In this document: piece after piece, positions 1,778-26,097 of the stretch
Layout of the letters: every line of letters starts with the position of its first letter
How positions within the stretch are numbered: the first letter of the stretch is position 1
From: a virus
IMG/VR virus record: IMGVR_UViG_3300027747_000771
Span: 1-27,293 of that record
DNA length: 27,293 nucleotides
Direction: 5' to 3' (one strand)
The notes under the pieces: generated by a model
What the model saw: only the letters and a program-made list of their open reading frames with translations
Databases searched by the model: none
What the model was told of the DNA's origin: nothing
Program-made: the position numbers and the translations under genes

Positions 1778-1852
1778 TGGTGGAGGATGGGAGGATCGAA
1801 CTCCCACTTCAGACTTGCAAAGCCCATGTGCTCCCATTATCACTAATCCCCC
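1778..1852 (-). tRNA. tRNA-Ala (TGC)
   Basis: Cloverleaf on the minus strand: acceptor 1846-1852 with 1782-1788 (one G-U), T arm with GTTCGATC loop, anticodon TGC at 1817-1819 with U33 and A37, discriminator A and encoded CCA at 1778-1780. It is the most downstream tRNA of the array, separated from the rest by two protein genes. The anticodon stem holds three G-U pairs. Confidence 0.9.
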
Positions 1853-1854
1853 AT

Positions 1855-2379
1855 TTAACTCGGTGTTATGGTGTTAAACGAAATCACCGTTTTTCTTTTA
1901 TGTCCTAAGTTTATAGGAGAACGATGCCACAAAGTTGCTGGCATCGTTAAAATATAACCTTCTTCGACATTAGGAATTACAATAGATTCTGTTTTTTGAT
2001 TCCTAATTTGAGTCTTAACATCATCACTTGGTAACTCCAGATAATAAACATTTGTCCAATTTGCTGTGCCATGAACATGCCAACCATGAAAACTATTGTT
2101 ATAGTACTGTTGAAACCAACAATTTAAATATCCAAATTGGGTAAATCCTAATTTTGAATATACATTTTTCATATGCTCAGTTAGAGAAGGACGTAAAATA
2201 TTCCAATATTTTCTCTCGACATTCTCTTCAACATACCAATCAGTATTAGTAATTTTTTTGTCATCATTGATAAAAATTGACATACTATCAATGCTTTTGA
2301 GAAGAACATTTTTTAAATTGTCATGTTCTTCAAATTTAGATACCGCATATGGACAGTCAATGTAATTGATATCAATCAT
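1855..2379 (-). CDS. 2OG-Fe(II) oxygenase-like protein
   Basis: A 174-residue protein. GWHVHGTANWTNVYYLEL (about 99-116) supplies an H101-x-H103 pair, and MPATLWHRSP (about 146-155) supplies the distal H152, followed by a basic KRKTVISFN strand. This is the arrangement of the double-stranded beta-helix oxygenases of T4-like phages. Here H-x-H replaces the more usual H-x-D, as in its relative at 459-1118. It starts 15 bases after the preceding small gene and ends 3 bases before tRNA-Ala. The substrate is unknown. Confidence 0.78.
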   Translation of the reverse strand: MIDINYIDCPYAVSKFEEHDNLKNVLLKSIDSMSIFINDDKKITNTDWYVEENVERKYWNILRPSLTEHMKNVYSKLGFTQFGYLNCWFQQYYNNSFHGWHVHGTANWTNVYYLELPSDDVKTQIRNQKTESIVIPNVEEGYILTMPATLWHRSPINLGHKRKTVISFNTITPS

Positions 2380-2394
2380 TATTTTTCAATAAAT

Positions 2395-2598
2395 TTATTT
2401 TAGCATTTCTACAACTTCTTCTAGTGTCTCACTTACTTCCCATGTGCCATGAGGAGGTCCATAAACAAATGTTACATCTTCAATTACTCCATCTTCACGG
2501 GTAACAGTATTTCTGTGTATCGTAACAATTAAATCTTTTCTGATTGAAACTTTGTGTCCTCTAAACTCTGGACTTGAATTCGTTAGTGTTATAAACAT
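2395..2598 (-). CDS. small FlbD-like conserved phage protein, 67 aa
   Basis: The 67-residue protein begins MFITLTNSSPEFRGHKVSIR and ends WEVSETLEEVVEMLK. The order (short strands, a central DG turn, WEV-E-T and a C-terminal amphipathic helix) matches small proteins of T4-like phages that look like the flagellar regulator FlbD. This is a resemblance only; a flagellar role is not implied. It lies just downstream of tRNA-Pro and upstream of the oxygenase at 1855. Confidence 0.72.
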   Translation of the reverse strand: MFITLTNSSPEFRGHKVSIRKDLIVTIHRNTVTREDGVIEDVTFVYGPPHGTWEVSETLEEVVEMLK

Positions 2599-2624
2599 GA
2601 TATTATCCTTTAAAATTATTAAAC

Positions 2625-2698
2625 TGGTCTCGGTAGCAGGAATCGAACCTACGCTCTATCGTCCCAAACGACAAGTGATACCATTTCACCATACCGAG
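2625..2698 (-). tRNA. tRNA-Pro (TGG)
   Basis: Acceptor CTCGGTA/TACCGAG is perfect, the T loop is TTCGATT, the anticodon TGG is at 2664-2666 with U33 and G37, the discriminator is A and CCA is encoded at 2625-2627. G37 is typical of Pro tRNAs. Confidence 0.92.
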
Positions 2699-2708
2699 TT
2701 ATTTATAC

Positions 2709-2782
2709 TGGTGCCCCATGACAGAATCGAACTGCCGTTACCTGAGTACAAAACAGGTGTTCTACCATTTAACTAATAGGGC
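2709..2782 (-). tRNA. tRNA-Thr (TGT)
   Basis: Acceptor GCCCTAT/ATGGGGC, T loop TTCGATT, CCA encoded at 2709-2711. Counting from both ends places anticodon TGT at 2748-2750 with U33 and A37. The 31-39 pair of the anticodon stem is a U-U mismatch, which makes the reading slightly less certain than for its neighbours. Confidence 0.8.
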
Positions 2783-2787
2783 GAAAC

Positions 2788-3531
2788 TTAAATTGCTTTC
2801 TCAATTATATTCTTAGCTAAATTATCCACATCGGCTCTTATGGTGCCTCCGAGAATAACAATTGCATACTGCTCACCATTCTTATGTACTATCATAACAA
2901 GACACTTACCAGCCGCATTCGTTGTGCCAGTTTTGGATACTTCAATGATATCAAATTTATTCATCAACTTCACGTTAGTGTTATTGACTGAAATGTGTTT
3001 TTCTTTATTCTTCTTATCTACAACAGTTAAATCGTATCTACTCAATGCTGATATCTCACGTATTTTATCATGTCTATACGCATCTGTCAACAAGACAACC
3101 AAGTCCCTTGCGGTACTGGTATTCCTTGCGCTTAGACCAGACGTATCATCAAATTTTGTATTGTACATCTCTAGCGCAATTGCACGTTTATTCATTTGGT
3201 AAACTGTCCACAATTTACCGCCCATGCTTTCTGCTAATGCTTCTGCGGCTCTGTTGTCACTTTTGATTAACATTAAATTTAATAATTCTTCTCTAGTAAA
3301 CTTATTGTGTGAATAAAACATTCCTTTGTATGGAACTTTCTCATTCAATGGAACTCCACTTTCAATTATGACAAGTGCGGTCATCAATTTTGTAATGCTT
3401 GCTATTGGTCTTATTGTATCAATTTCAGAATCAACAATTGGATACTGTTTAGTGATATTGTATGTGTAGACTGTAATCGCACTAGCACTTAATGCCGACA
3501 GCAATACTAAAGATAAGATTATTTTTTTCAT
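2788..3531 (-). CDS. Secreted D-alanyl-D-alanine carboxypeptidase-like protein (peptidase S11)
   Basis: From the ATG at 3531 (MKKIILSLVLLSALSASA) the protein has 247 residues with a clear signal peptide. All three penicillin-binding-protein motifs of the S11 family are present in order: SITK (S45, K48), SDN (91-93) and KTGT (200-203). D,D-peptidases of this class trim or cut peptidoglycan stem peptides in the periplasm. It is shorter than DacA-type enzymes and lacks the C-terminal beta domain and membrane anchor, so it is closer to PbpG/PBP7 in size. A longer in-frame start at 3600 would lie in tRNA-Asn and is rejected. The gene is embedded between tRNA-Asn and tRNA-Thr, so it is co-transcribed with tRNAs. 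Confidence 0.88.
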   Translation of the reverse strand: MKKIILSLVLLSALSASAITVYTYNITKQYPIVDSEIDTIRPIASITKLMTALVIIESGVPLNEKVPYKGMFYSHNKFTREELLNLMLIKSDNRAAEALAESMGGKLWTVYQMNKRAIALEMYNTKFDDTSGLSARNTSTARDLVVLLTDAYRHDKIREISALSRYDLTVVDKKNKEKHISVNNTNVKLMNKFDIIEVSKTGTTNAAGKCLVMIVHKNGEQYAIVILGGTIRADVDNLAKNIIEKAI

Positions 3532-3545
3532 ATGATTCTTTGTAA

Positions 3546-3620
3546 TGGCTCCAGAGGCAGGGATCGAACCTACGACCAATTGATTAACAGTCAACTGCAC
3601 TACCGCTGTGCTACTCTGGA
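3546..3620 (-). tRNA. tRNA-Asn (GTT)
   Basis: Acceptor TCCAGAG/CTCTGGA, D stem GCAC/GTGC, anticodon GTT in a CTGTTAA loop, T loop TTCGATC, discriminator G and CCA encoded at 3546-3548. The discriminator G73 fits Asn. Confidence 0.92.
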
Positions 3621-3628
3621 ATAGAAAA

Positions 3629-3704
3629 TGGTTGCGGGTGAAGGATTCGAACCTCCGTCCTTTAGGTTATGAGCCTAATAGTCTGACCTCTGACGTAACC
3701 CGCT
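3629..3704 (-). tRNA. tRNA with CAT anticodon, initiator-like (fMet candidate)
   Basis: The anticodon loop is CTCATAA on a TTAGG/CCTAA stem. The 1-72 position is an unpaired A-A, the D stem has G11-C24 (R11:Y24) and the 3' end reads CCCGCAACCA, all like bacterial initiator tRNA. Against it, the anticodon stem has only two consecutive G-C pairs next to the loop instead of three. An Ile2 tRNA whose C34 becomes lysidine is the alternative. A second CAT tRNA with an elongator-like acceptor lies at 5460-5534. Confidence 0.82.
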
Positions 3705-3718
3705 ATAATATATATGTA

Positions 3719-3794
3719 TGGAGTGAGTGACAGGACTCGAACCTGCATTATACGGACTTGCAAACCGTTGCCTAGCCTTTCAGCGCACACTCAC
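3719..3794 (-). tRNA. tRNA-Cys (GCA)
   Basis: Acceptor GTGAGTG/CACTCAC is perfect, the anticodon GCA sits in a TTGCAAG loop, the discriminator is T (the Cys identity base) and CCA is encoded at 3719-3721. Pair 31-39 is a T-T mismatch. Confidence 0.88.
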
Positions 3795-3801
3795 ATAAAT
3801 T

Positions 3802-3929
3802 TGGCGCTCTACAGGATTCTCACCTGTTCACTGGAGACCCTATAATCAGGGTTTTTATCCCTCTACTGCCATGAATTGCGAATTCATCGTAGAACCCAAG
3901 TTGCGAACTTGGCGTGGAAATATCAGAGC
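3802..3929 (-). ncRNA. 128-nt tRNA-like RNA with CCA end and extra hairpins
   Basis: This element occupies a tRNA slot between tRNA-Asp and tRNA-Cys, with the same 7-nt spacers, and ends in discriminator G plus CCA (3802-3804). Its ends pair as GCTCT/AGAGC (3925-3929 with 3806-3810) and are followed by a T-arm-like hairpin, ACAGG-TGAGAAT-CCTGT. Between them lie two perfect 7-bp hairpins, each with a CGC loop (stems CCAAGTT and ATGAATT). The second is extended by a TCTAC/GTAGA helix. A further hairpin is ACCCT/AGGGT. No normal anticodon loop is visible. It looks like an enlarged cloverleaf rather than a translating tRNA. A stable RNA such as those in the T4 tRNA region is a possible parallel; the function is unknown. 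Confidence 0.65.
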
Positions 3930-3936
3930 ATAAACT

Positions 3937-4011
3937 TGGCGGTCTGTAGGAGAATCGAACTCCTGTAAGTGGATAGACAATCCACAGTAATAACCTCTAT
4001 ACGAACAGACC
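3937..4011 (-). tRNA. tRNA-Asp (GTC)
   Basis: Acceptor GGTCTGT/ACAGACC, anticodon stem GTGGA/TCCAC, loop TTGTCTA with anticodon GTC, T loop TTCGATT, discriminator G, CCA at 3937-3939. Position 37 is T rather than the usual purine, which is odd. Confidence 0.86.
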
Positions 4012-4017
4012 AAAACT

Positions 4018-4102
4018 TGGTGGAGATGATAGGGATCGAACCTATTGTGACTTAAGTCGGAAGATTTACAGTCTCCTGCCATACCATTACGGCGGCATCT
4101 CC
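4018..4102 (-). tRNA. tRNA-Tyr (GTA)
   Basis: Class II tRNA with a long variable arm. Acceptor GGAGATG/CATCTCC is perfect, the anticodon GTA sits in a CTGTAAA loop on a GGAGA/TCTTC stem, discriminator A, CCA at 4018-4020. Its 5' end lies one base from the CCA of the stem-closed RNA at 4104-4229. Confidence 0.92.
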
Positions 4103-4103
4103 A

Positions 4104-4229
4104 TGGTATTAGATTAGTTGACGCACTATTTGCTACGCTCAACGGAATTAGTGGCCACCTTACCGTTTATGTACGCAGTTACTCAGGCGTTACGATTGCC
4201 CATGGCTTACGTCAACTAATCTAATACCA
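4104..4229 (-). ncRNA. Structured RNA A closed by a perfect 20-bp stem
   Basis: Positions 4104-4123 are the exact reverse complement of 4210-4229, giving a 20-bp closing stem around an 86-nt core. On the minus strand the element starts TGGTA and ends TACCA, so its 3' end is CCA, one base before tRNA-Tyr. Inside the core I see a helix AACGG/CCGTT (4163-4167 with 4141-4145) and a hairpin ACGC/GCGT (4187-4190 with 4173-4176). There is no ORF of matching strand and no tRNA fold. The long end stem resembles the processing stems around rRNAs cut by RNase III. The function is unknown. Confidence 0.7.
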
Positions 4230-4231
4230 CA

Positions 4232-4431
4232 TTTAATTACACTGGATGATTGACAAAAATAACAGTTTTGAACCTGCCCTACCATGTCGTCCATGGATTT
4301 GCTTGTCAACCACATTACAGACCAAGTTGTTCCAGCGTGATTCGCTCGTTCATGTAATCTAGAAGTGCCAGTCCGTCAACTGGTTCTCACTTGTTAAATT
4401 ACCTACTGGCTTGGTAACCAATGTAATTAAA
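4232..4431 (-). ncRNA. Structured RNA B: 14-bp closing stem and three-domain junction
   Basis: Positions 4418-4431 pair with 4232-4245 over 14 bp. The single non-Watson-Crick position is G-U on the minus strand but would be C-A on the plus strand, which argues for minus-strand transcription. The interior resolves into three nested domains in order. The first is AAGTG-CCAGT/ACTGG-CACTT (4363-4392). The second is an ATTACA/TGTAAT helix (4314-4319 with 4353-4358) holding an AGCG/CGCT hairpin. The third is a 7-bp TTGACA-type helix (4250-4256 with 4303-4309) holding a CCATG/CATGG hairpin (4282-4296). Two bases separate it from RNA A and two from the CCA of tRNA-Glu. No protein or known RNA family recognised. 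Confidence 0.72.
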
Positions 4432-4433
4432 TC

Positions 4434-4509
4434 TGGTACACCTAGGGGGAATCGAACCCCTCGTTTGCGCCTTGAAAGGGCGCCGTCCTAACCGTTAGAC
4501 GATAGGTGC
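4434..4509 (-). tRNA. tRNA-Glu (TTC)
   Basis: Acceptor GCACCTA/TAGGTGT, anticodon stem GCGCC/GGCGC with loop CTTTCAA, T stem GGGGG-type with TTCGATT loop, CCA at 4434-4436. It is the first gene after the promoter at 4556-4584. Confidence 0.92.
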
Positions 4510-4555
4510 ATAATTTTTTAAAGAACATTTGATTGATTTCTCAATCTATGAATAG

Positions 4556-4584
4556 AGTATAACACTCTAAACATTTCCTGTCAA
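4556..4584 (-). promoter_or_regulatory. Sigma70-type promoter inside the tRNA array with inverted-repeat upstream element
   Basis: TTGACA (4579-4584), a 17-bp spacer and TATACT (4556-4561) on the minus strand. Directly upstream lie an A-rich CCAAAAATA element and the inverted repeat AACAAC...GTTGTT, shared with the promoters at 5684, 7783 and 8757. It should start transcription near 4549 and drive tRNA-Glu, RNAs B and A, tRNA-Tyr and the rest. It fills the 110-base gap between tRNA-Ser and tRNA-Glu. Confidence 0.85.
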
Positions 4585-4620
4585 CAACTATTTTTGGTAA
4601 CTGTTGTTTTTTATTAACAC

Positions 4621-4708
4621 TGGCAGAGAGTATGAGATTCGAACTCATGCACCGCTTTCGCAATGACAGTTTAGCAAACTGCTCCTTTAACCACTCAGGC
4701 AACTCTCT
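4621..4708 (-). tRNA. tRNA-Ser (GCT)
   Basis: Class II tRNA: acceptor AGAGAGT/ACTCTCT, anticodon GCT in loop TTGCTAA on stem GCAGT/ACTGT, long variable arm (CATTGCGAAAGCGGTG), discriminator G, CCA at 4621-4623. Confidence 0.92.
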
Positions 4709-4711
4709 ATA

Positions 4712-4801
4712 TGGCGGAAGCGGTGAGATTCGAACTCACGGAACATTTCTGTTCGCTAGTTTTCAAGACTAGTGCCATAAACCGGACTCGACCACACTTC
4801 C
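4712..4801 (-). tRNA. tRNA-Ser (TGA)
   Basis: Class II tRNA: acceptor GGAAGTG/CGCTTCC, anticodon stem CTAGT/ACTAG with loop CTTGAAA, long variable arm (GAACAGAAATGTTC), discriminator G, CCA at 4712-4714. Confidence 0.93.
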
Positions 4802-4807
4802 ATAACT

Positions 4808-4882
4808 TGGTGCGCCCTGAGAGAATCAAACTCCCACTTCAACGTTCGTAGCGTTGTGTAATATTCATTTTACTAAAGGCGC
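4808..4882 (-). tRNA. tRNA-Arg (ACG)
   Basis: Acceptor GCGCCTT/AGGGCGC, D stem GTAA/TTAC, anticodon ACG in loop CTACGAA on stem CAACG/CGTTG, T loop TTTGATT (T in place of the usual C56), discriminator A, CCA at 4808-4810. A34 would need deamination to inosine by the host TadA to read all CGN codons. Confidence 0.87.
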
Positions 4883-4893
4883 ATAAAAACATT

Positions 4894-4970
4894 TGGTGCC
4901 CTCTCTCAGATTCGAACTGAGACTTTACGGCTTCTAAGACCGATCTCTCTACCAATTGGAGTAAGAGGGC
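4894..4970 (-). tRNA. Class I tRNA with TAG anticodon (Leu CUA by codon, identity uncertain)
   Basis: Acceptor GCCCTCT/AGAGGGC is perfect, T stem CTCAG/CTGAG, CCA at 4894-4896. The anticodon loop is CTTAGAA, with TAG at 4934-4936, U33 and A37, which would pair with CUA (Leu) codons. Yet the variable region is only five bases, whereas bacterial Leu tRNAs have a long variable arm. The 27-43 pair is T-T and 31-39 is T-G. The charging amino acid is therefore uncertain. Confidence 0.75.
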
Positions 4971-4973
4971 ATT

Positions 4974-5047
4974 TGGTTCCCAGAGCAAGAATCGAACTTG
5001 CGATAAAGGCTTATCAAGCCTACGTTATACCATTTAACTATCCGGGA
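4974..5047 (-). tRNA. tRNA-Ile (GAT)
   Basis: Acceptor TCCCGGA/TCTGGGA with one G-U, anticodon GAT in loop TTGATAA, T loop TTCGATT, discriminator A, CCA at 4974-4976. Pair 27-43 of the anticodon stem is T-T. Confidence 0.88.
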
Positions 5048-5208
5048 TTAATTTCGATTTTCATCTCCCACTACTAACTATTGCTTCCCAATTTATCGTC
5101 CATTGGCACCCGTGGTAGGGCTTTCAATGCTCATCGGCCTTGCGTTCTAGCGCAAGTGATCCTTGGGATAGGACTGCTAGGCCTTAACTTGCCTAGCATC
5201 AAGTGAAT
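5048..5208 (-). ncRNA. Hairpin-rich non-coding element C between tRNA-Val and tRNA-Ile
   Basis: Every other spacer in this part of the array is under 15 bases or holds a promoter, but this one has 161 bases with no gene. Three clear hairpins lie on it: GCTAGGC/GCCTAGC (5176-5182 with 5191-5197), CTTGCG/CGCAAG (5139-5144 with 5151-5156), and CATTG...CAATG with an inner CCC/GGG (5101-5129). No long closing stem like those of RNAs A and B is evident. It could be an RNA released when the flanking tRNAs are processed. Role unknown. Confidence 0.5.
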
Positions 5209-5283
5209 TGGTACCTTGTGACAGGATCGAACTGCCGACCTTCTCCTTGTAAGGGAGACACTCTACCGCTGAGTTAACAAGGC
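5209..5283 (-). tRNA. tRNA-Val (TAC)
   Basis: Acceptor GCCTTGT/ACAAGGT, anticodon TAC in loop CTTACAA on stem TCTCC/GGAGA, T loop TTCGATC, discriminator A, CCA at 5209-5211. Confidence 0.92.
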
Positions 5284-5292
5284 AATTTTCTT

Positions 5293-5368
5293 TGGGGTGA
5301 CCTATGGAATTCGAATCCATGCTATCGGAATCACAATCCGAGGTGCTAACCGCTGACACTAAGGTCAC
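5293..5368 (-). tRNA. tRNA-His (GTG)
   Basis: Acceptor GTGACCT/AGGTCAC is perfect, anticodon GTG in loop TTGTGAT on stem TCGGA/TCCGA, discriminator C (the His identity base), CCA at 5293-5295. The base before position 1 is T, so the extra G-1 normally encoded in bacterial tRNA-His is not seen. Confidence 0.9.
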
Positions 5369-5380
5369 ACCAAAGAAAAC

Positions 5381-5455
5381 TGGTAGGGGCACCGAGAATT
5401 GAACTCGGATTTACTGGTTAAAAGCCAGCTACTCTAGCCGTTGAGTTATACCCCC
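5381..5455 (-). tRNA. tRNA-Lys (TTT)
   Basis: Acceptor GGGGGTA/TGCCCCT, anticodon TTT in loop CTTTTAA on stem GCTGG/CCAGT, T loop TTCAATT, discriminator A, CCA at 5381-5383. Confidence 0.92.
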
Positions 5456-5459
5456 AAAT

Positions 5460-5534
5460 TGGTGGTGACAGTTGGATTTGAACCAACGACCGATTGCGTA
5501 TGAAGCAATTGCACTACCGCTGTGCTATGTCACC
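5460..5534 (-). tRNA. tRNA-Met (CAT), elongator-like
   Basis: Acceptor GGTGACA/TGTCACC is perfect, anticodon CAT in loop TTCATAC on stem ATTGC/GCAAT, T loop TTCAAAT, discriminator A, CCA at 5460-5462. A fully paired 1-72 position marks it as elongator Met (or Ile2), unlike the CAT tRNA at 3629. Confidence 0.9.
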
Positions 5535-5541
5535 TTTTATT

Positions 5542-5615
5542 TGGCAGAGGGTACAAGGATCGAACTTGTGCTAACAGAGTCAAAGTCTGGTGTGCTACCG
5601 CTACACTAACCCCCA
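5542..5615 (-). tRNA. tRNA-Gln (TTG)
   Basis: Anticodon TTG in loop CTTTGAC, T loop TTCGATC, discriminator G and CCA at 5542-5544. The 1-72 position is T-T, and a weak first pair beginning with U1 is typical of Gln tRNAs. It is the first gene of the array after the promoter at 5684-5711. Confidence 0.88.
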
Positions 5616-7782: not shown

Positions 7783-7810
7783 AGTTTAACAGGTTGGGTA
7801 GGTAAGTCAA
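7783..7810 (-). promoter_or_regulatory. Sigma70-type promoter with inverted-repeat upstream element
   Basis: TTGACT (7805-7810), a 16-bp spacer and TAAACT (7783-7788) on the minus strand, preceded by CCAAAAATA inside AACAAC...GTTGTT. It drives the genes from 7752 downwards and overlaps no gene, lying just after the stop at 7832. Confidence 0.8.
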
Positions 7811-7831
7811 CAACTATTTTTGGTAGTGTTG

Positions 7832-8014
7832 TTATTCTGCAACAGGGGCAAACATCTTGCGACCATCGACCATGAACCGTTCAAAGGCTTCCATCACTCG
7901 CTCGGAGTAAATCATCTTACCTTCTTTTTGGATATCTTGCAACAACTCCAAGAAACCCAAACCCAAAAATTCACGTTCTTTATTCAGAATACCAATTGCT
8001 GTTTCGATTTTCAT
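7832..8014 (-). CDS. Unknown small phage protein, 60 aa
   Basis: A 60-residue, mostly helical soluble protein (ETAIGILNKEREFLGLGFLE at the start) with AAGGAAA before its ATG, like all genes in this unit. It is the last gene of the unit that starts at the promoter at 8757. No family recognised. Confidence 0.7.
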   Translation of the reverse strand: MKIETAIGILNKEREFLGLGFLELLQDIQKEGKMIYSERVMEAFERFMVDGRKMFAPVAE

Positions 8015-8023
8015 TTTGTTTCC

Positions 8024-8203
8024 TTAATCAAAAAAGTTGCCAGACTGACACGAAAATGCATTTTGACCAGCATCAAACCAAGCCATAGGATGCAAATCCA
8101 ACTTATCAATCACTTGACGATTACACATTTCCATCGCATTCAGTTTAGATTCTGCGGTGAATTCGTAAACATCTTTACCAACATAAAATTTGTATGTAAT
8201 CAT
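8024..8203 (-). CDS. Unknown small phage protein, 59 aa
   Basis: Starting at ATG 8203 the protein has 59 residues: MITYKFYVGKDVYEFTAESK, then NAMEMCNRQV and two further cysteine-free turns before a C in FSCQSGNFFD. The beta-beta-alpha beginning (TYKFYV-G-VYEFTAESKLNA) is common in small T4-like phage proteins. In-frame starts at 8215 or 8284 would overlap the upstream gene by 11 to 80 bases; the shortest is chosen. Confidence 0.65.
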   Translation of the reverse strand: MITYKFYVGKDVYEFTAESKLNAMEMCNRQVIDKLDLHPMAWFDAGQNAFSCQSGNFFD

Positions 8204-8204
8204 A

Positions 8205-8441
8205 TTAAGCACCATAAAAGTTAGAAGTAAAACCACAAGCATTATAGACACACTCACGAACTTCGGTGTCCATCGCCTCACCAAATTTGCTATAGTCAGA
8301 TTTCGCTAACATGTTGAGACACTTATAAGTCTGTGGCCATGTCAGGTTCATTGTAATTGCAGTAACGACAACGCCATGAACTGCTAAGTTACCAACTTCG
8401 CTAAACATTCCGTAAGAGATATCTGTAGTCAATGTAGTCAT
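8205..8441 (-). CDS. Unknown phage protein, 78 aa
   Basis: 78 residues with AAGGAAA seven bases before the ATG. The protein has a mildly hydrophobic stretch (NLAVHGVVVTAITMNLTW) too polar to be a confident membrane segment, and two cysteines in the C-terminal third. It is the second gene behind the promoter at 8757. No family recognised. Confidence 0.7.
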   Translation of the reverse strand: MTTLTTDISYGMFSEVGNLAVHGVVVTAITMNLTWPQTYKCLNMLAKSDYSKFGEAMDTEVRECVYNACGFTSNFYGA

Positions 8442-8450
8442 TTTATTTCC

Positions 8451-14935: not shown

Positions 14936-15286
14936 ATGGCAGAAAAAACAGCAGAACAAGCACATGAAAAAGGTGCGTTTATAGAGAAATTATTATTTGC
15001 TCTATTACCTTTATTAGTTGGTTCAGTTGGATATTTAATTCAAGCATTAGGTTCTATCCAACATGACGTAACCATTCTGAATCAAAAAGTGAGTTTAGTT
15101 GTTACTACAGATAATAAGCAGGCTAGCAATAGCGGTGCTGAATTAGCACGTGAAAAATTACGTCAAGATTTAGAAAAAGAAATTCAAAAAAATCGTGATG
15201 CTATTATGGAGAATAGAACACACATTGCTATTCTTGAAGACAGAGCAGGTGTAACGAAAAAAATTGGACCAATGAAGGAAAACTAA
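14936..15286 (+). CDS. Membrane-anchored coiled-coil protein, 116 aa
   Basis: 116 residues: a charged N-terminus, a membrane helix at about 19-42 (LLFALLPLLVGSVGYLIQAL) and a long predicted coiled coil (about 45-108) with a Lys/Glu-rich heptad stretch, AREKLRQDLEKEIQKNRDAI. It probably forms oligomers at the inner membrane together with its neighbours at 14785 and 15288, which share the TM-plus-coil design. No enzyme motif. No family name known to me. Confidence 0.75.
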   Translation: MAEKTAEQAHEKGAFIEKLLFALLPLLVGSVGYLIQALGSIQHDVTILNQKVSLVVTTDNKQASNSGAELAREKLRQDLEKEIQKNRDAIMENRTHIAILEDRAGVTKKIGPMKEN

Positions 15287-15287
15287 A

Positions 15288-15839
15288 ATGGCAGAAGTAG
15301 TATTACAGCAGAAACCATTGTCACGTAGTGAACGTGAAGCACAAATTAAAGATAAAGCAGGATGGCTGATTACTGTTTTAGCCGCTTTGCTTGCAATTAA
15401 CACTTATATATCAAATGGTAACAGCAGTAAAGTTTTAAATAACACAATCCGAGCAAATGATACTTGGGCATTTTATCAAGCTAAGAGTATTAAACAAACT
15501 CTAGCAGAAATGCGTATGGATGATGCTATTGCACAAAAAGATTTTAAAAAGGCTGAAGCACTAAAGGTTAAAATTGATAAGTATGAATCTGATCCAACTA
15601 CGGGTGAAGGTAAAAAAGAATTGTTTATTAAAGCAAAAGCACTTGAAGCTGAACGTGATGAAATTCGCAAATCAAGTCCTTGGTTAACATTTGCTAGTTC
15701 TGCATTTCAAATTGCAATCGTATTATTAACTGCTAGTATCTTATCTGTTAGTATATCATTGTATTGGGCTAGTATTGTTGTTGGATTATTTGCAGGAATA
15801 TTCATGAGTCAAGGATTATGGCTTTGGCTTCCGATATAA
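15288..15839 (+). CDS. DUF4337 membrane protein
   Basis: 183 residues. A membrane helix at about 24-41 is followed by the DUF4337 signature (DTWAFYQAKSIKQTLAEMRM), a helical coil, and a C-terminal hydrophobic hairpin of two or three helices (about 133-181). DUF4337 proteins are found in bacteria and T4-like phages and have no known function. The last 22 bases overlap the start of the phosphoesterase gene, so the two are translationally coupled. This ties an uncharacterised membrane protein to lipid-type enzymes. Confidence 0.82.
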   Translation: MAEVVLQQKPLSRSEREAQIKDKAGWLITVLAALLAINTYISNGNSSKVLNNTIRANDTWAFYQAKSIKQTLAEMRMDDAIAQKDFKKAEALKVKIDKYESDPTTGEGKKELFIKAKALEAERDEIRKSSPWLTFASSAFQIAIVLLTASILSVSISLYWASIVVGLFAGIFMSQGLWLWLPI

Positions 15840-16609
15840 AAAAGTATCGAAGTATCTTTATTAGTGATGTTCATTTGGGAACAAAAGATTGTAAAGCGGA
15901 TAGTCTTAACAATTTTTTAAAACATAATTCTTGCGATACTTTATATTTGGTGGGTGACATTATAGATGCATGGCGCATACAGCAAAACAAGTGGCGTTGG
16001 AAACAAAGTCATACTGGTGTAGTTAGGCGTGTTCTAGGACATGCAAGGCGTGGTACCCGTGTTATTTACATAGCAGGTAACCACGATGAATTTTTAAGAC
16101 CAATGATACCATATGGATTTAGTTTTGGGTTAATAGAAATACACAACCAAATAGAACATATAGGTGCAGATGGTAAACATTACTTAGTTACGCATGGTGA
16201 CTTGTTTGATGGCATTACAAGATTGGCTCCATGGCTAGCGTTTTTGGGAGATAAAGCATATGATTTCATTTTATCGGTTAATAGCAAATTCAATTGGATA
16301 CGTCACCGCTTTGGTTTTGGGTATTTTAGTATTAGTAAATATCTCAAAACAAGAGTAAAGAAAGCAGTAGACTTTATATTCCACTTTGAAAAAAATCTAG
16401 CTGGATACTGTAAGAAGCGTGGATATGATGGTGTTATATGTGGGCATATACACCACGCAGAAATTAAAGAAATAGATGGTGTCATTTATATGAATGATGG
16501 TGATTGGGTAGAATCCTGTACAGCACTTGTAGAACATTGGGACGGTCGTTGGGAAATAATCACATGGATAAAAATTAATGACAAAGACAATATTAATAGT
16601 AACGGATAA
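15818..16609 (+). CDS. PlcP/LpxH-type metallophosphoesterase
   Basis: 263 residues with a full set of calcineurin-like motifs: ISDVHLG (15-21), VGDIID (45-50), GNHDE (87-91), THGD (125-128) and CGHIHH (208-213). Further hallmarks of the bacterial family annotated as UDP-2,3-diacylglucosamine diphosphatase, which includes the marine phospholipase C PlcP, are LGDKAYDF (about 143-150), a membrane-associating FGYFSISKYLK region, and YMNDGDWVESCTALVEH near the end. PlcP cuts phosphatidylglycerol/ethanolamine to diacylglycerol. An LpxH-like step in lipid A synthesis is the alternative. It is directly followed, with overlap, by a GT4 glycosyltransferase. Confidence 0.85.
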   Translation: MALASDIKKYRSIFISDVHLGTKDCKADSLNNFLKHNSCDTLYLVGDIIDAWRIQQNKWRWKQSHTGVVRRVLGHARRGTRVIYIAGNHDEFLRPMIPYGFSFGLIEIHNQIEHIGADGKHYLVTHGDLFDGITRLAPWLAFLGDKAYDFILSVNSKFNWIRHRFGFGYFSISKYLKTRVKKAVDFIFHFEKNLAGYCKKRGYDGVICGHIHHAEIKEIDGVIYMNDGDWVESCTALVEHWDGRWEIITWIKINDKDNINSNG

Positions 16610-17576
16610 TCTACCAGATCAAATAAATGGCGTTGTCACAACTTACAAAAACATTCAGATTTGTGCGGCTAGTGATGGTTATAACATTGTGGTGTTGGAT
16701 CCCAGGAGGTTCAGCTACATTAATTGCCCTGGCTACAACGAAGTCAAGATTGCCTATCCGAGGAACTTGGGCGAGAAGATTAAGGAGATATCTCCGGATT
16801 ATATCCATGTCGCCACAGAGGGTCCTCTTGGTCTGTGGGCTAGAGCATATCTTTCATTGGCTGATATTCCTCACAATACCGCTTATCATACTAAGTTTCC
16901 TGAAGGGTTGAAGAAGCTGTTTGGCATTCCGGAAAGCATAACATGGCGCTTTGTTCGTTGGTTTCATAAGCATTCTGGTAAAGTATTGACAACCACAGAC
17001 AGCATGGTTAAAGAATTAAAATCACATGGATTCGATGGTGAGGTTATCTCTTGGACTAGAGGTGTTGATAGAGAAATTTTTAAACCAGAGTTGAGAGAAG
17101 ACTTTCCTGGCAAGTACCTCTTATGTGTTAGTCGTGTTAGTAAAGAAAAGAATCTTGAAAAGTTTTTTGAATTGGATTATCCCGGATACTTGAAGATCAT
17201 GGTAGGCGATGGTCCTATGTTAGAAACTTATAAGAAGCGTTATCCAGATGTAACATTTACAGGATTCAAGACTGGTGTTGATCTAGCACGTTACTATGCT
17301 AACGCAGAAGTATTTGTATTTCCTAGTCAATGGGAAACGTTTGGTATCGTAATGATTGAAGCCATGGCATGTGGCACACCTGTTGCCGCATATCCTGTTC
17401 AAGGTCCTAAAGATGTTATAGATGAAGATATTACTGGATGTATGCGTGACAATTTAAAAGATGCTGTAGATGCCGCATTAAAATTAAATAGGATTAACGT
17501 ATTTGAGGGAAGCAAACGTTGGACTTGGGATAATGCTTGGAAAATTTTTAAGGATAACTTGGTAGGCGCAAAATGA
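16578..17576 (+). CDS. GT4-family glycosyltransferase (Agt-like candidate)
   Basis: 332 residues. The N-terminal lobe has DNLPDQINGVVTTYKN (10-25) with the GVV loop, and TEGPLGLWAR (about 80-89). The C-terminal lobe has LLCVSRVSKEKNLE, MVGDGPMLE and the E-x7-E motif (E253, E261 in WETFGIVMIEAMACGTP) that binds the nucleotide sugar. This is the fold of alpha-mannosyl, sulfoquinovosyl and diacylglycerol glycosyltransferases. Placed behind a PlcP-type phosphoesterase, the best guess is a diacylglycerol glycosyltransferase making glycolipid; glycosylation of another acceptor remains possible. Its first third is G+C richer than the rest. Start overlaps the upstream gene by 32 bases. Confidence 0.85.
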   Translation: MTKTILIVTDNLPDQINGVVTTYKNIQICAASDGYNIVVLDPRRFSYINCPGYNEVKIAYPRNLGEKIKEISPDYIHVATEGPLGLWARAYLSLADIPHNTAYHTKFPEGLKKLFGIPESITWRFVRWFHKHSGKVLTTTDSMVKELKSHGFDGEVISWTRGVDREIFKPELREDFPGKYLLCVSRVSKEKNLEKFFELDYPGYLKIMVGDGPMLETYKKRYPDVTFTGFKTGVDLARYYANAEVFVFPSQWETFGIVMIEAMACGTPVAAYPVQGPKDVIDEDITGCMRDNLKDAVDAALKLNRINVFEGSKRWTWDNAWKIFKDNLVGAK

Positions 17577-17770
17577 GAACATATATCCTTTCGATATTAT
17601 GTTTAATTATTTTGACTGCAAGTGCTGAAAAAAAAGAAGAATCCGTTGATATTTGTATCAGATGGAAGTGGACGGGCGATGTTTATGATAGAAAAGTCCA
17701 ATGCATAGAATGGGCTAAGAAAGATTGTTCTCAACGATTACATAAAGATATATGTAAACTTGGCGGCTAA
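17573..17770 (+). CDS. Small secreted cysteine-containing protein, 65 aa
   Basis: 65 residues starting in an ATGA overlap with the glycosyltransferase stop. A signal peptide (MRTYILSILCLIILTASA) precedes a charged mature part with four cysteines (DICIRW, QCIEW, DCSQR, DICK), suggesting two disulfides in the periplasm. It may be a periplasmic partner of the membrane proteins in this operon. No family recognised. Confidence 0.72.
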   Translation: MRTYILSILCLIILTASAEKKEESVDICIRWKWTGDVYDRKVQCIEWAKKDCSQRLHKDICKLGG

Positions 17771-17775
17771 TAGTC

Positions 17776-18387
17776 ATGGATCCAATTACAATAGGACTTG
17801 CATTCTCAGCCGCCCAGAGTGCAGTCAGTCACATCAAGCAGGCAATCGCATTAGGCAAAGACGTTAATAGTCTTGTCGGGCAATTCAGCAAATTCTTTGA
17901 ATCCTCAGATGCTATTCATCGTGAAAAAACAAAACAAAGAGCAAAGGCGCAAAGCCTAGGTAAAACTGATGCTGAATTAGGTAAAGAAGCACTTCAAATT
18001 GCTATGCATAGTGATGCATTACGTGAACAAGAACGTGAACTTAAGGATATGATTATCTGGCAATTGGGTAAACCTCAAATTTGGGAACAGATGATTAAAG
18101 AACGCACACGTTTATTTAAAGAACGTGCAGAAGCAGAAGCCGCCGCTGAGAAAAAAAGATTAGAGCATAAAAAGAAAATGGCAGACATGTTTATGTTTGG
18201 AATGTATTTTATTGGATTTGGTGCTATTCTTTTTGCAATTGTTATGGGTGGTATAGGTGTATATGGTGCAATGGAAGAAAAACGAATTTATGAACAAAAA
18301 GTTGCTGAGAGAGCCGCATTAGTAAGGCGTCAGCATAAAGAGAGAGAACAAAGAGAACGTGAAGAAAGAGATAAAGCGATACAATAA
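17776..18387 (+). CDS. Membrane-anchored coiled-coil protein, MDPITI family, copy 1
   Basis: 203 residues. It begins MDPITIGLAFSAAQSA, continues as a helical, charged domain (about 45-135), and has one membrane helix at about 138-165 followed by a strongly charged tail (EKRIYEQKVAERAALVRRQH). The same design and start (MDPIT) recur in the next gene, so they are tandem paralogues. Similar pairs occur in T4-like marine phages, function unknown. Last base of its stop is the first of the next ATG. Confidence 0.75.
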   Translation: MDPITIGLAFSAAQSAVSHIKQAIALGKDVNSLVGQFSKFFESSDAIHREKTKQRAKAQSLGKTDAELGKEALQIAMHSDALREQERELKDMIIWQLGKPQIWEQMIKERTRLFKERAEAEAAAEKKRLEHKKKMADMFMFGMYFIGFGAILFAIVMGGIGVYGAMEEKRIYEQKVAERAALVRRQHKEREQREREERDKAIQ

Positions 18388-25473: not shown

Positions 25474-26097
25474 TTATTCGTACATTACAGTACTGGTACT
25501 TCCAAGTGCCCATTTTGCTTCAGTCTCTACAGACCAACGCTTTGTTGCTACTTTGAAATCTGGAATCTTAAGTTCTTTAGGGTTGCTACTAGGTTCTAGA
25601 ATCAGCATTCTATTGTTGGGCTGTGCGGCAAATTGCCCATTATCACACTTAATAAAGTTGTAAGACTTATGATCTTCAACATCTTCGCTGAATCCTGTAT
25701 CTAGTACATTAAAATCTGGATGTGCAGAATCGACAGTAAACATATACTCGCCGTATCTCCAATCACCAGCCTTAGTTTTGAATTTACATTTTTGAGATTG
25801 CAACTGTGCTTTTTTAATTACAGTAATGTCATATGACAAACAATCCCACAATTGTAATTGGTCGAGGGGCATTTCATTTGTTATTTCTTTCCAGCAGAAT
25901 GCGTGTAATGGCAATTTGTCATATAATGCGCCGTATTCATTTAGATATGCTTCTATGCGAAATGCTTGTCCCCTCAAACTCTTTATACTTATCCACCAGC
26001 AAGGAACTAATTCTCCATGACCCTTTTCAAAGTCATAGAGAAATTCTTTGCGTACAAAACACTTAACTGCGGGAAGATTTGCTACGATGTGTGCCAT
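25474..26097 (-). CDS. T4-like phage conserved protein of unknown function, 207 aa
   Basis: 207 residues. It opens MAHIVANLPAVKCFVRKEFL with a following DFEKGHGELVPCWWISIKSL, contains LHAFCWKEIT, LDQLQLWDCLSYDITVI and YMFTVDSAHPD, and ends with an aromatic tail. The long beta-rich sequence with paired aromatic residues is conserved in T4-like marine phages. No motif identifies an activity. It sits between the 49-residue membrane protein and the zinc ribbon. Confidence 0.75.
   Translation of the reverse strand: MAHIVANLPAVKCFVRKEFLYDFEKGHGELVPCWWISIKSLRGQAFRIEAYLNEYGALYDKLPLHAFCWKEITNEMPLDQLQLWDCLSYDITVIKKAQLQSQKCKFKTKAGDWRYGEYMFTVDSAHPDFNVLDTGFSEDVEDHKSYNFIKCDNGQFAAQPNNRMLILEPSSNPKELKIPDFKVATKRWSVETEAKWALGSTSTVMYE

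Follow-up and report, generated by a model that had tools for sequence, protein, structure and literature searches.

A predicted PlcP-type phospholipase and an Agt-group glycosyltransferase in overlapping phage genes form a candidate lipid-remodelling module

The window, by which we mean the whole stretch of DNA analysed here, is a 27,293-bp freshwater virus record from IMG/VR. Because it encodes a T4 RNase H-type exonuclease, a RuvC-like resolvase, a head-maturation-type protease and a GH19 endolysin, we regard it as a fragment of a tailed phage. No T4 portal was found in the window or in its nearest contigs, all of which are fragments. The genes of interest lie on the plus strand, in the following order.

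14936-15286, plus strand: 116-aa ORF that likely opens the plus-strand operon; viral cluster 22, without a Pfam match.
15288-15839, plus strand: DUF4337 protein, 183 aa (PF14235, E 7e-30), in the same operon as plcP.
15818-16609, plus strand: predicted PlcP-type metallophosphoesterase (phospholipase C, PlcP family), 263 aa, ATG start; assigned from Pfam, identity, motifs, tree and AF2 model.
16578-17576, plus strand: predicted Agt-group GT4 enzyme (Agt, diacylglycerol glycosyltransferase), 332 aa, ATG start; assigned from Pfam, identity, residues, tree and AF2 model.
17573-17770, plus strand: 65-aa ORF immediately 3' of the glycosyltransferase (GT) gene; viral cluster 8, without a Pfam match.
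17776-18387, plus strand: 203-aa ORF; viral cluster 3, whose members sit at neighbouring positions in 47 viral loci; without a Pfam or PHROG match.

The plcP and GT4 frames overlap by 32 bp, which bears out the overlapping genes described in the earlier note. The DUF4337 gene overlaps plcP from upstream by 22 bp, so the plcP-GT pair sits inside a longer plus-strand operon. The DUF4337 family was clustered in 42 viral loci, and contigs that share the window genes of clusters 3, 5, 8 and 22 carry a GT2, a GT4 or neither. Elsewhere in the window, 19 tRNA genes form a dense cluster on the minus strand (1778-5615), and two 2OG-Fe(II) oxygenase genes (phrog_81) and a phage ferredoxin-family gene (phrog_3704) lie at 459-1118, 1855-2379 and 25474-26097.

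The first protein of the pair matched the Pfam families Metallophos (5e-10) and Metallophos_2 (5e-9). The earlier note had claimed complete metallophosphoesterase motifs, and we found all five (D17-x-H19, G46-D47-x2-D50, G87-N88-H89-D90, H126-G127-D128 and G209-H210-I211-H212), invariant across 54 aligned viral and cellular relatives. The protein is 56% identical to P. aeruginosa PlcP over nearly the full length and 51% identical to S. meliloti PlcP over 255 aa, whereas identity to E. coli LpxH is about 23% over a partial match of 120 residues. From its adenylate cyclase neighbour gene and from published work, we take locus L245 to be PA3219-PA3218 of P. aeruginosa; L244 is presumably the characterised S. 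meliloti plcP, from its LuxR regulator and AHL synthase neighbours (sinR/sinI). On the NCBIfam LpxH models TIGR01854 and NF003743 the window protein scored 30.7 bits against a cut-off of 190.35 and 42.7 bits against one of 134, and true PlcPs score in a similar way on LpxH models, at 38-55 bits. In a 119-row tree, the LpxH sequences were split off with 100/100 support by a branch of about 7 changes per site. The phage PlcPs formed a 96/99 group, into which a single sequence of a Methylotenera MAG contig also falls, and the cellular PlcPs were grouped at 85/93. Since the LpxH branch is very long, its attachment within the PlcP tree is not fixed (the AU test did not reject a tree that puts the phage proteins and LpxH together on one side, p = 0.51), and phylogeny alone therefore gives no order of the PlcP subgroups. 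The AF2 model of the protein (pLDDT 85.8) has the LpxH family as its best PDB fold, a match that does not discriminate because the PDB contains LpxH and we saw no PlcP entry there. Judged from its sequence, the first protein is PlcP-type, not LpxH.

The second protein matched Glycos_transf_1 (4e-24) and Glyco_transf_4 (3e-14) in Pfam and carries E253-x7-E261, the E-x7-E motif by which the earlier note had recognized a GT4 enzyme. Along its entire length it is 38% identical to P. aeruginosa Agt1, and its full-length identity to Agt homologues is 38-41%, while E. coli WaaG and WaaB gave a local match of 42-43 residues only. In a 96-row tree, the 38 phage GT rows formed a single 100/100 clade. 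This clade grouped at 99/99 with P. aeruginosa Agt1 and the Agts linked to plcP, and WaaG and WaaB lay far away. Its AF2 model (pLDDT 94) resembles GT-B retaining folds, with MshA, BshA and PimA among the nearest. Agt1 is a proven UDP-glucose:diacylglycerol transferase (PMC8528852), and we predict that the second protein is an Agt-group GT4 diacylglycerol glycosyltransferase. Phylogeny had been named in the earlier note as the way to separate PlcP and Agt from LpxH and lipopolysaccharide transferases; in both trees the phage proteins grouped on the PlcP and Agt side, with the AU result above bearing on the root of the first. The PlcP/Agt lipid-remodelling reading put forward there thus gains support from the trees, together with the match to the cellular plcP-agt operon.

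For GTcp, the SAR11 Agt, residues whose mutation abolishes activity and residues of the docked diacylglycerol pocket have been mapped (PMC8231724), and we compared them with the window GT by motif spacing and by alignment to cellular Agts. The window GT keeps 13 of the 14 GTcp residues that are essential or modelled at the substrate pocket (G18, G82, G85, H104, T160, R161, R186, K191, T254, F255, G256, E261 and W317), and the counterparts of GTcp His104, Arg163 and Trp320, which belong to the docked diacylglycerol site, are invariant in the viral rows. The catalytic dyad of GTcp is His104-Asp256, and the Asp256 position is Glu in all viral GT4 rows. In GTcp itself, D256E removes more than 90% of the activity (PMC8231724). 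Glu also occupies this position in 10 of 52 plcP-linked cellular Agts, from Acidovorax, Limnohabitans, Curvibacter and relatives. Because the viral proteins have Glu where GTcp needs Asp256, their sugar donor, acceptor or mechanism may differ, and this substitution is the main uncertainty on the glycosylation step.

Neither gene is confined to the window, a wide viral spread that the earlier note had missed, as it had the frequent replacement of GT4 by GT2 and the Pho-box-like sites of relatives described below. A PlcP relative is encoded at no fewer than 595 IMG/VR sites and a GT relative at 297 viral sites. Among 54 nonredundant viral loci, picked by PlcP similarity alone and with at least 1 kb of downstream sequence, 50 have a glycosyltransferase directly downstream of plcP (40 GT2 and 10 GT4, which are unrelated folds), and four have none in that place. 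In cells, an Agt-type gene lies directly 3' of plcP in at least 52 of 80 relatives, and in Pseudoroseomonas cervicalis (L225) PlcP and GT form one continuous frame of 858 residues. A gene for the synthesis of a glycolipid or betaine lipid is a frequent, though not universal, neighbour of plcP. The dN/dS ratios among viral homologues are 0.074 for plcP and 0.136 for the GT, so both genes are under purifying selection. Since these values are low and the plcP-then-GT order recurs in many related viral contigs, the pair of ORFs is not a chance occurrence. That the phospholipase is constant and the glycosyltransferase can be exchanged is in keeping with a lipid conversion in two steps. A T4-type portal is encoded in 12 of 28 large viral records, so at least those 12 are real phages. 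The viral loci are related to each other, and the counts and p-values given here therefore overstate the number of independent events.

The commonest partner of phage plcP is a GT2 of about 238 aa (cluster 2; L009:5627-6343 and 59 other viral loci). Its closest NCBIfam model is an arsenosugar-type glycosyltransferase, and the plcP neighbourhoods of the 80 cellular loci gave no relative of this GT2. We do not label it 'Pgt', as the protein is not close to the GT21-type gene that adjoins plcP in Pannonibacter, itself HpnI-like by NCBIfam. A RimK-family ATP-grasp gene stands between plcP and GT4 in 12 loci; the RimK-type ligases make up cluster 26 (L128:198-1088 and 14 other loci). A DesA-type fatty-acid desaturase is encoded near plcP-GT at L148:7633-8343 and in 20 other viral loci (cluster 14), which suggests wider editing of membrane lipids by these phages. 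Porin-like outer-membrane proteins, judged by eye, are also encoded near plcP (L022:4845-5753 and five others in cluster 94, and cluster 30).

A link to phosphate came from the neighbourhoods of the related genes. The phosphate-binding gene pstS lies beside or near plcP in about 10 viral loci, and a PstS is present in only 2 of the 28 large viral records. The published Pho box has as its core the tandem repeat TGTMAY-N5-TGTMAY, which we found within 150 bp upstream of 8 of 8 viral pstS genes, 32 of 108 viral plcP genes and several cluster 17 genes. Of the other viral genes, about 1,580 in number, just one had it. This pattern was defined post hoc in the same data, so we re-tested it with a matrix built from the viral pstS sites alone. 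The matrix detected sites in 40 of 108 plcP upstream regions (37%) and in 15 of 1566 (1%) for other genes, with a Fisher p of about 6e-39 that ignores kinship of the loci. Scoring by matches to the literature consensus CTGTCATN4CTGTCAT, we saw only a weak excess in front of plcP. The same TGTMAY-N5-TGTMAY repeat precedes the true pstS genes of five Betaproteobacteria (Acidovorax, Bordetella, Cupriavidus, Methylotenera and a Burkholderiaceae MAG). Furthermore, the viral PstS proteins are 70-76% identical to those of Limnohabitans, Acidovorax and Burkholderiaceae, and the hosts of the phages that carry pstS and plcP are probably Burkholderiales. The repeats upstream of viral pstS and plcP (seen at L007, L015, L030, L059, L066, L103, L109, L136 and others) point to control of phage genes by host PhoB in what are probably Burkholderiales phages. 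Cluster 17 is an Ala/Val-rich protein of about 215 aa that is often encoded shortly 3' of plcP-GT (L020, L040, L043, L054, L065 at 7803-8450, L075 and others); its genes have their own Pho-box-like site, with 13 of 15 upstream regions above threshold.

The window itself has no Pho box on either strand, and none was found in the 14 loci of its DUF4337-upstream type or at the plcP genes of the Mosig and S-SRM01 phages. The strict pattern was also absent from all 80 cellular plcP upstream regions; the box is a common trait of PlcP, not a defining one. Because the window and its DUF4337-upstream relatives lack the box, the Pho-box evidence supports the module as a kind and does not speak for regulation in the window.

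The pair is probably the PlcP-Agt pathway by which bacteria remodel their lipids, in a form carried by phages. By analogy with its family, PlcP would act as a Mn-dependent phosphodiesterase that cuts the phosphorylated head group off host PG, PE or PC to leave diacylglycerol. The co-translated GT4 would then use a UDP-sugar to glycosylate the diacylglycerol, and the product, a glycolipid without phosphorus, would keep the membrane intact. In the least certain step, the freed head-group phosphate might feed phage DNA synthesis under phosphate shortage, and in related phages the host PhoB appears to turn the module on. Extended to many freshwater phages, including large T4-related ones, this would be a Pho-responsive module in which PlcP strips head groups, an Agt-type GT4 or the unrelated GT2 caps the diacylglycerol and the membrane serves as a phosphate store for viral DNA. 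We hold this wider reading tentatively, as finely balanced and if anything slightly doubtful.

The same two enzymes could also act with the glycolipid itself as the goal. Altered membrane charge or curvature might block superinfection, protect a virus factory from host defences or set the timing of lysis, and phosphate would be a by-product. This would suit the window and its nearest relatives, which are without a Pho box, and the scarcity of pstS in most viral records; the desaturases in 21 related loci suggest that membrane editing may be broader, and lipid remodelling has been proposed to influence phage binding (PMC9804370). However, the Pho-box-like site at 37% of related viral plcP genes and at all eight testable viral pstS genes connects the module with a lack of phosphate in many relatives, and we consider a glycolipid goal unlikely, though worth keeping in view. 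A further possibility, which we rate as improbable, is that PlcP is a true phospholipase while the GT4, and likewise the GT2, glycosylates an acceptor other than diacylglycerol, so that the link between the genes is transcriptional only. The Asp-to-Glu change at the catalytic position of all viral GT4s would agree with this, as would the commoner partner being an unrelated GT2 nearest to an arsenosugar-type model and the 4 of 54 loci that are without a GT. But the counterparts of the diacylglycerol-pocket residues are invariant in the viral rows, the gene order and overlap with plcP are conserved in cells and phages, and the viral GT4s group with Agt1, a proven diacylglycerol transferase.

We rejected a third reading, in which an LpxH-like UDP-diacylglucosamine hydrolase and a GT4 that adds sugar to lipopolysaccharide (LPS) would modify LPS or lipid A and so change the receptor. 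The PDB fold neighbours are LpxH, phage homologues are annotated as LpxH and the GT4 family includes LPS transferases; the identities and model scores nevertheless set the first protein far from LpxH, the trees place the GT with plcP-linked Agts and not with WaaG or WaaB, and the fold match is not discriminating. This modification of LPS or lipid A is very improbable.

This pathway is known in bacteria (PMC4796936, PMC8231724, PMC8528852, PMC9239053). The P. aeruginosa PlcP-Agt1 operon (PA3219-PA3218; PMC8528852) shares its gene order and overlap with the window, with 56% and 38% identity for the two proteins and the same pattern of NCBIfam matches, and Pho boxes have been reported in the promoters of glycosyltransferase operons in that species (PMC8528852). 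However, that operon is cellular and chromosomal and its Agt1 has the catalytic Asp, whereas the phage GT has Glu and the window no Pho box. In 'Candidatus Pelagibacter' HTCC7211 (PMC4796936, PMC8231724) agt follows plcP as in the window, and the phage GT has 13 of the 14 GTcp residues, but GTcp requires Asp256 where the phage protein has Glu, a comparison that runs through motif spacing and cellular Agts. The S. meliloti protein, which is the PlcP of Zavaleta-Pastor 2010 as cited in PMC9239053, resembles the window PlcP at 51% identity, but no glycosyltransferase lies next to it on the 3' side. LpxH, the UDP-2,3-diacylglucosamine hydrolase, has a calcineurin-like fold and metal-binding motifs in common with the window PlcP and differs from it in the partial identity of about 23%, a 100/100 clade of its own and scores far under the cut-off. 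Cyanophages provide a precedent for marine phage PstS and for host-PhoB control of phage phosphate genes. The likeness is a phage phosphate gene with a Pho-box-like promoter, whereas in the phages described here, whose hosts are probably Burkholderiales, it is a phospholipase gene that would be controlled. Phages are also known to raise host phosphate uptake (pstS, phoA); if our reading is true, drawing phosphate from the phospholipid of the host membrane would be a strategy distinct from boosted uptake, and infected cells would be a source of glycolipid in lakes.

The earlier note knew of no description of this pair as a phage system, and our search, which left most subscription papers and preprints outside its reach, likewise found no description of a phage plcP or of plcP-GT as a phage system. 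Where they are annotated, phage copies of plcP are labelled LpxH. A K03269 'lpxH' call has been reported from the Lake Baikal virome (PMC9611531), and viral calls of this kind, both there and in the records of Mosig and S-SRM01, may in many cases stand for PlcP. Pelagibacter phage Mosig (L161) and Synechococcus phage S-SRM01 (L162) are isolates with plcP-like genes annotated LpxH and without a GT directly adjoining; in Mosig a PstS-family gene is divergent from plcP. Through the module, a connection of phosphate limitation with lipid remodelling and infection would become open to test, and Mosig, as an isolate, has the first gene.

Another record, MT836169 (L163, 'Bacteriophage sp.'), was set aside because it looks like a piece of a Bacteroidales chromosome. 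It contains tyrosyl-tRNA synthetase and rnpA-, ppk- and ppx-like genes, and its plcP-like gene is followed by a glycosyltransferase of another type. The closest 'cellular' PlcP, which groups with the phage PlcPs, comes from a Methylotenera MAG contig (L164; NZ_JAQSCU010000013.1, 655541-666260), where it sits amid small same-strand phage-like genes near the end of the 669-kb contig. This region may belong to a prophage or to a large phage that was misbinned.
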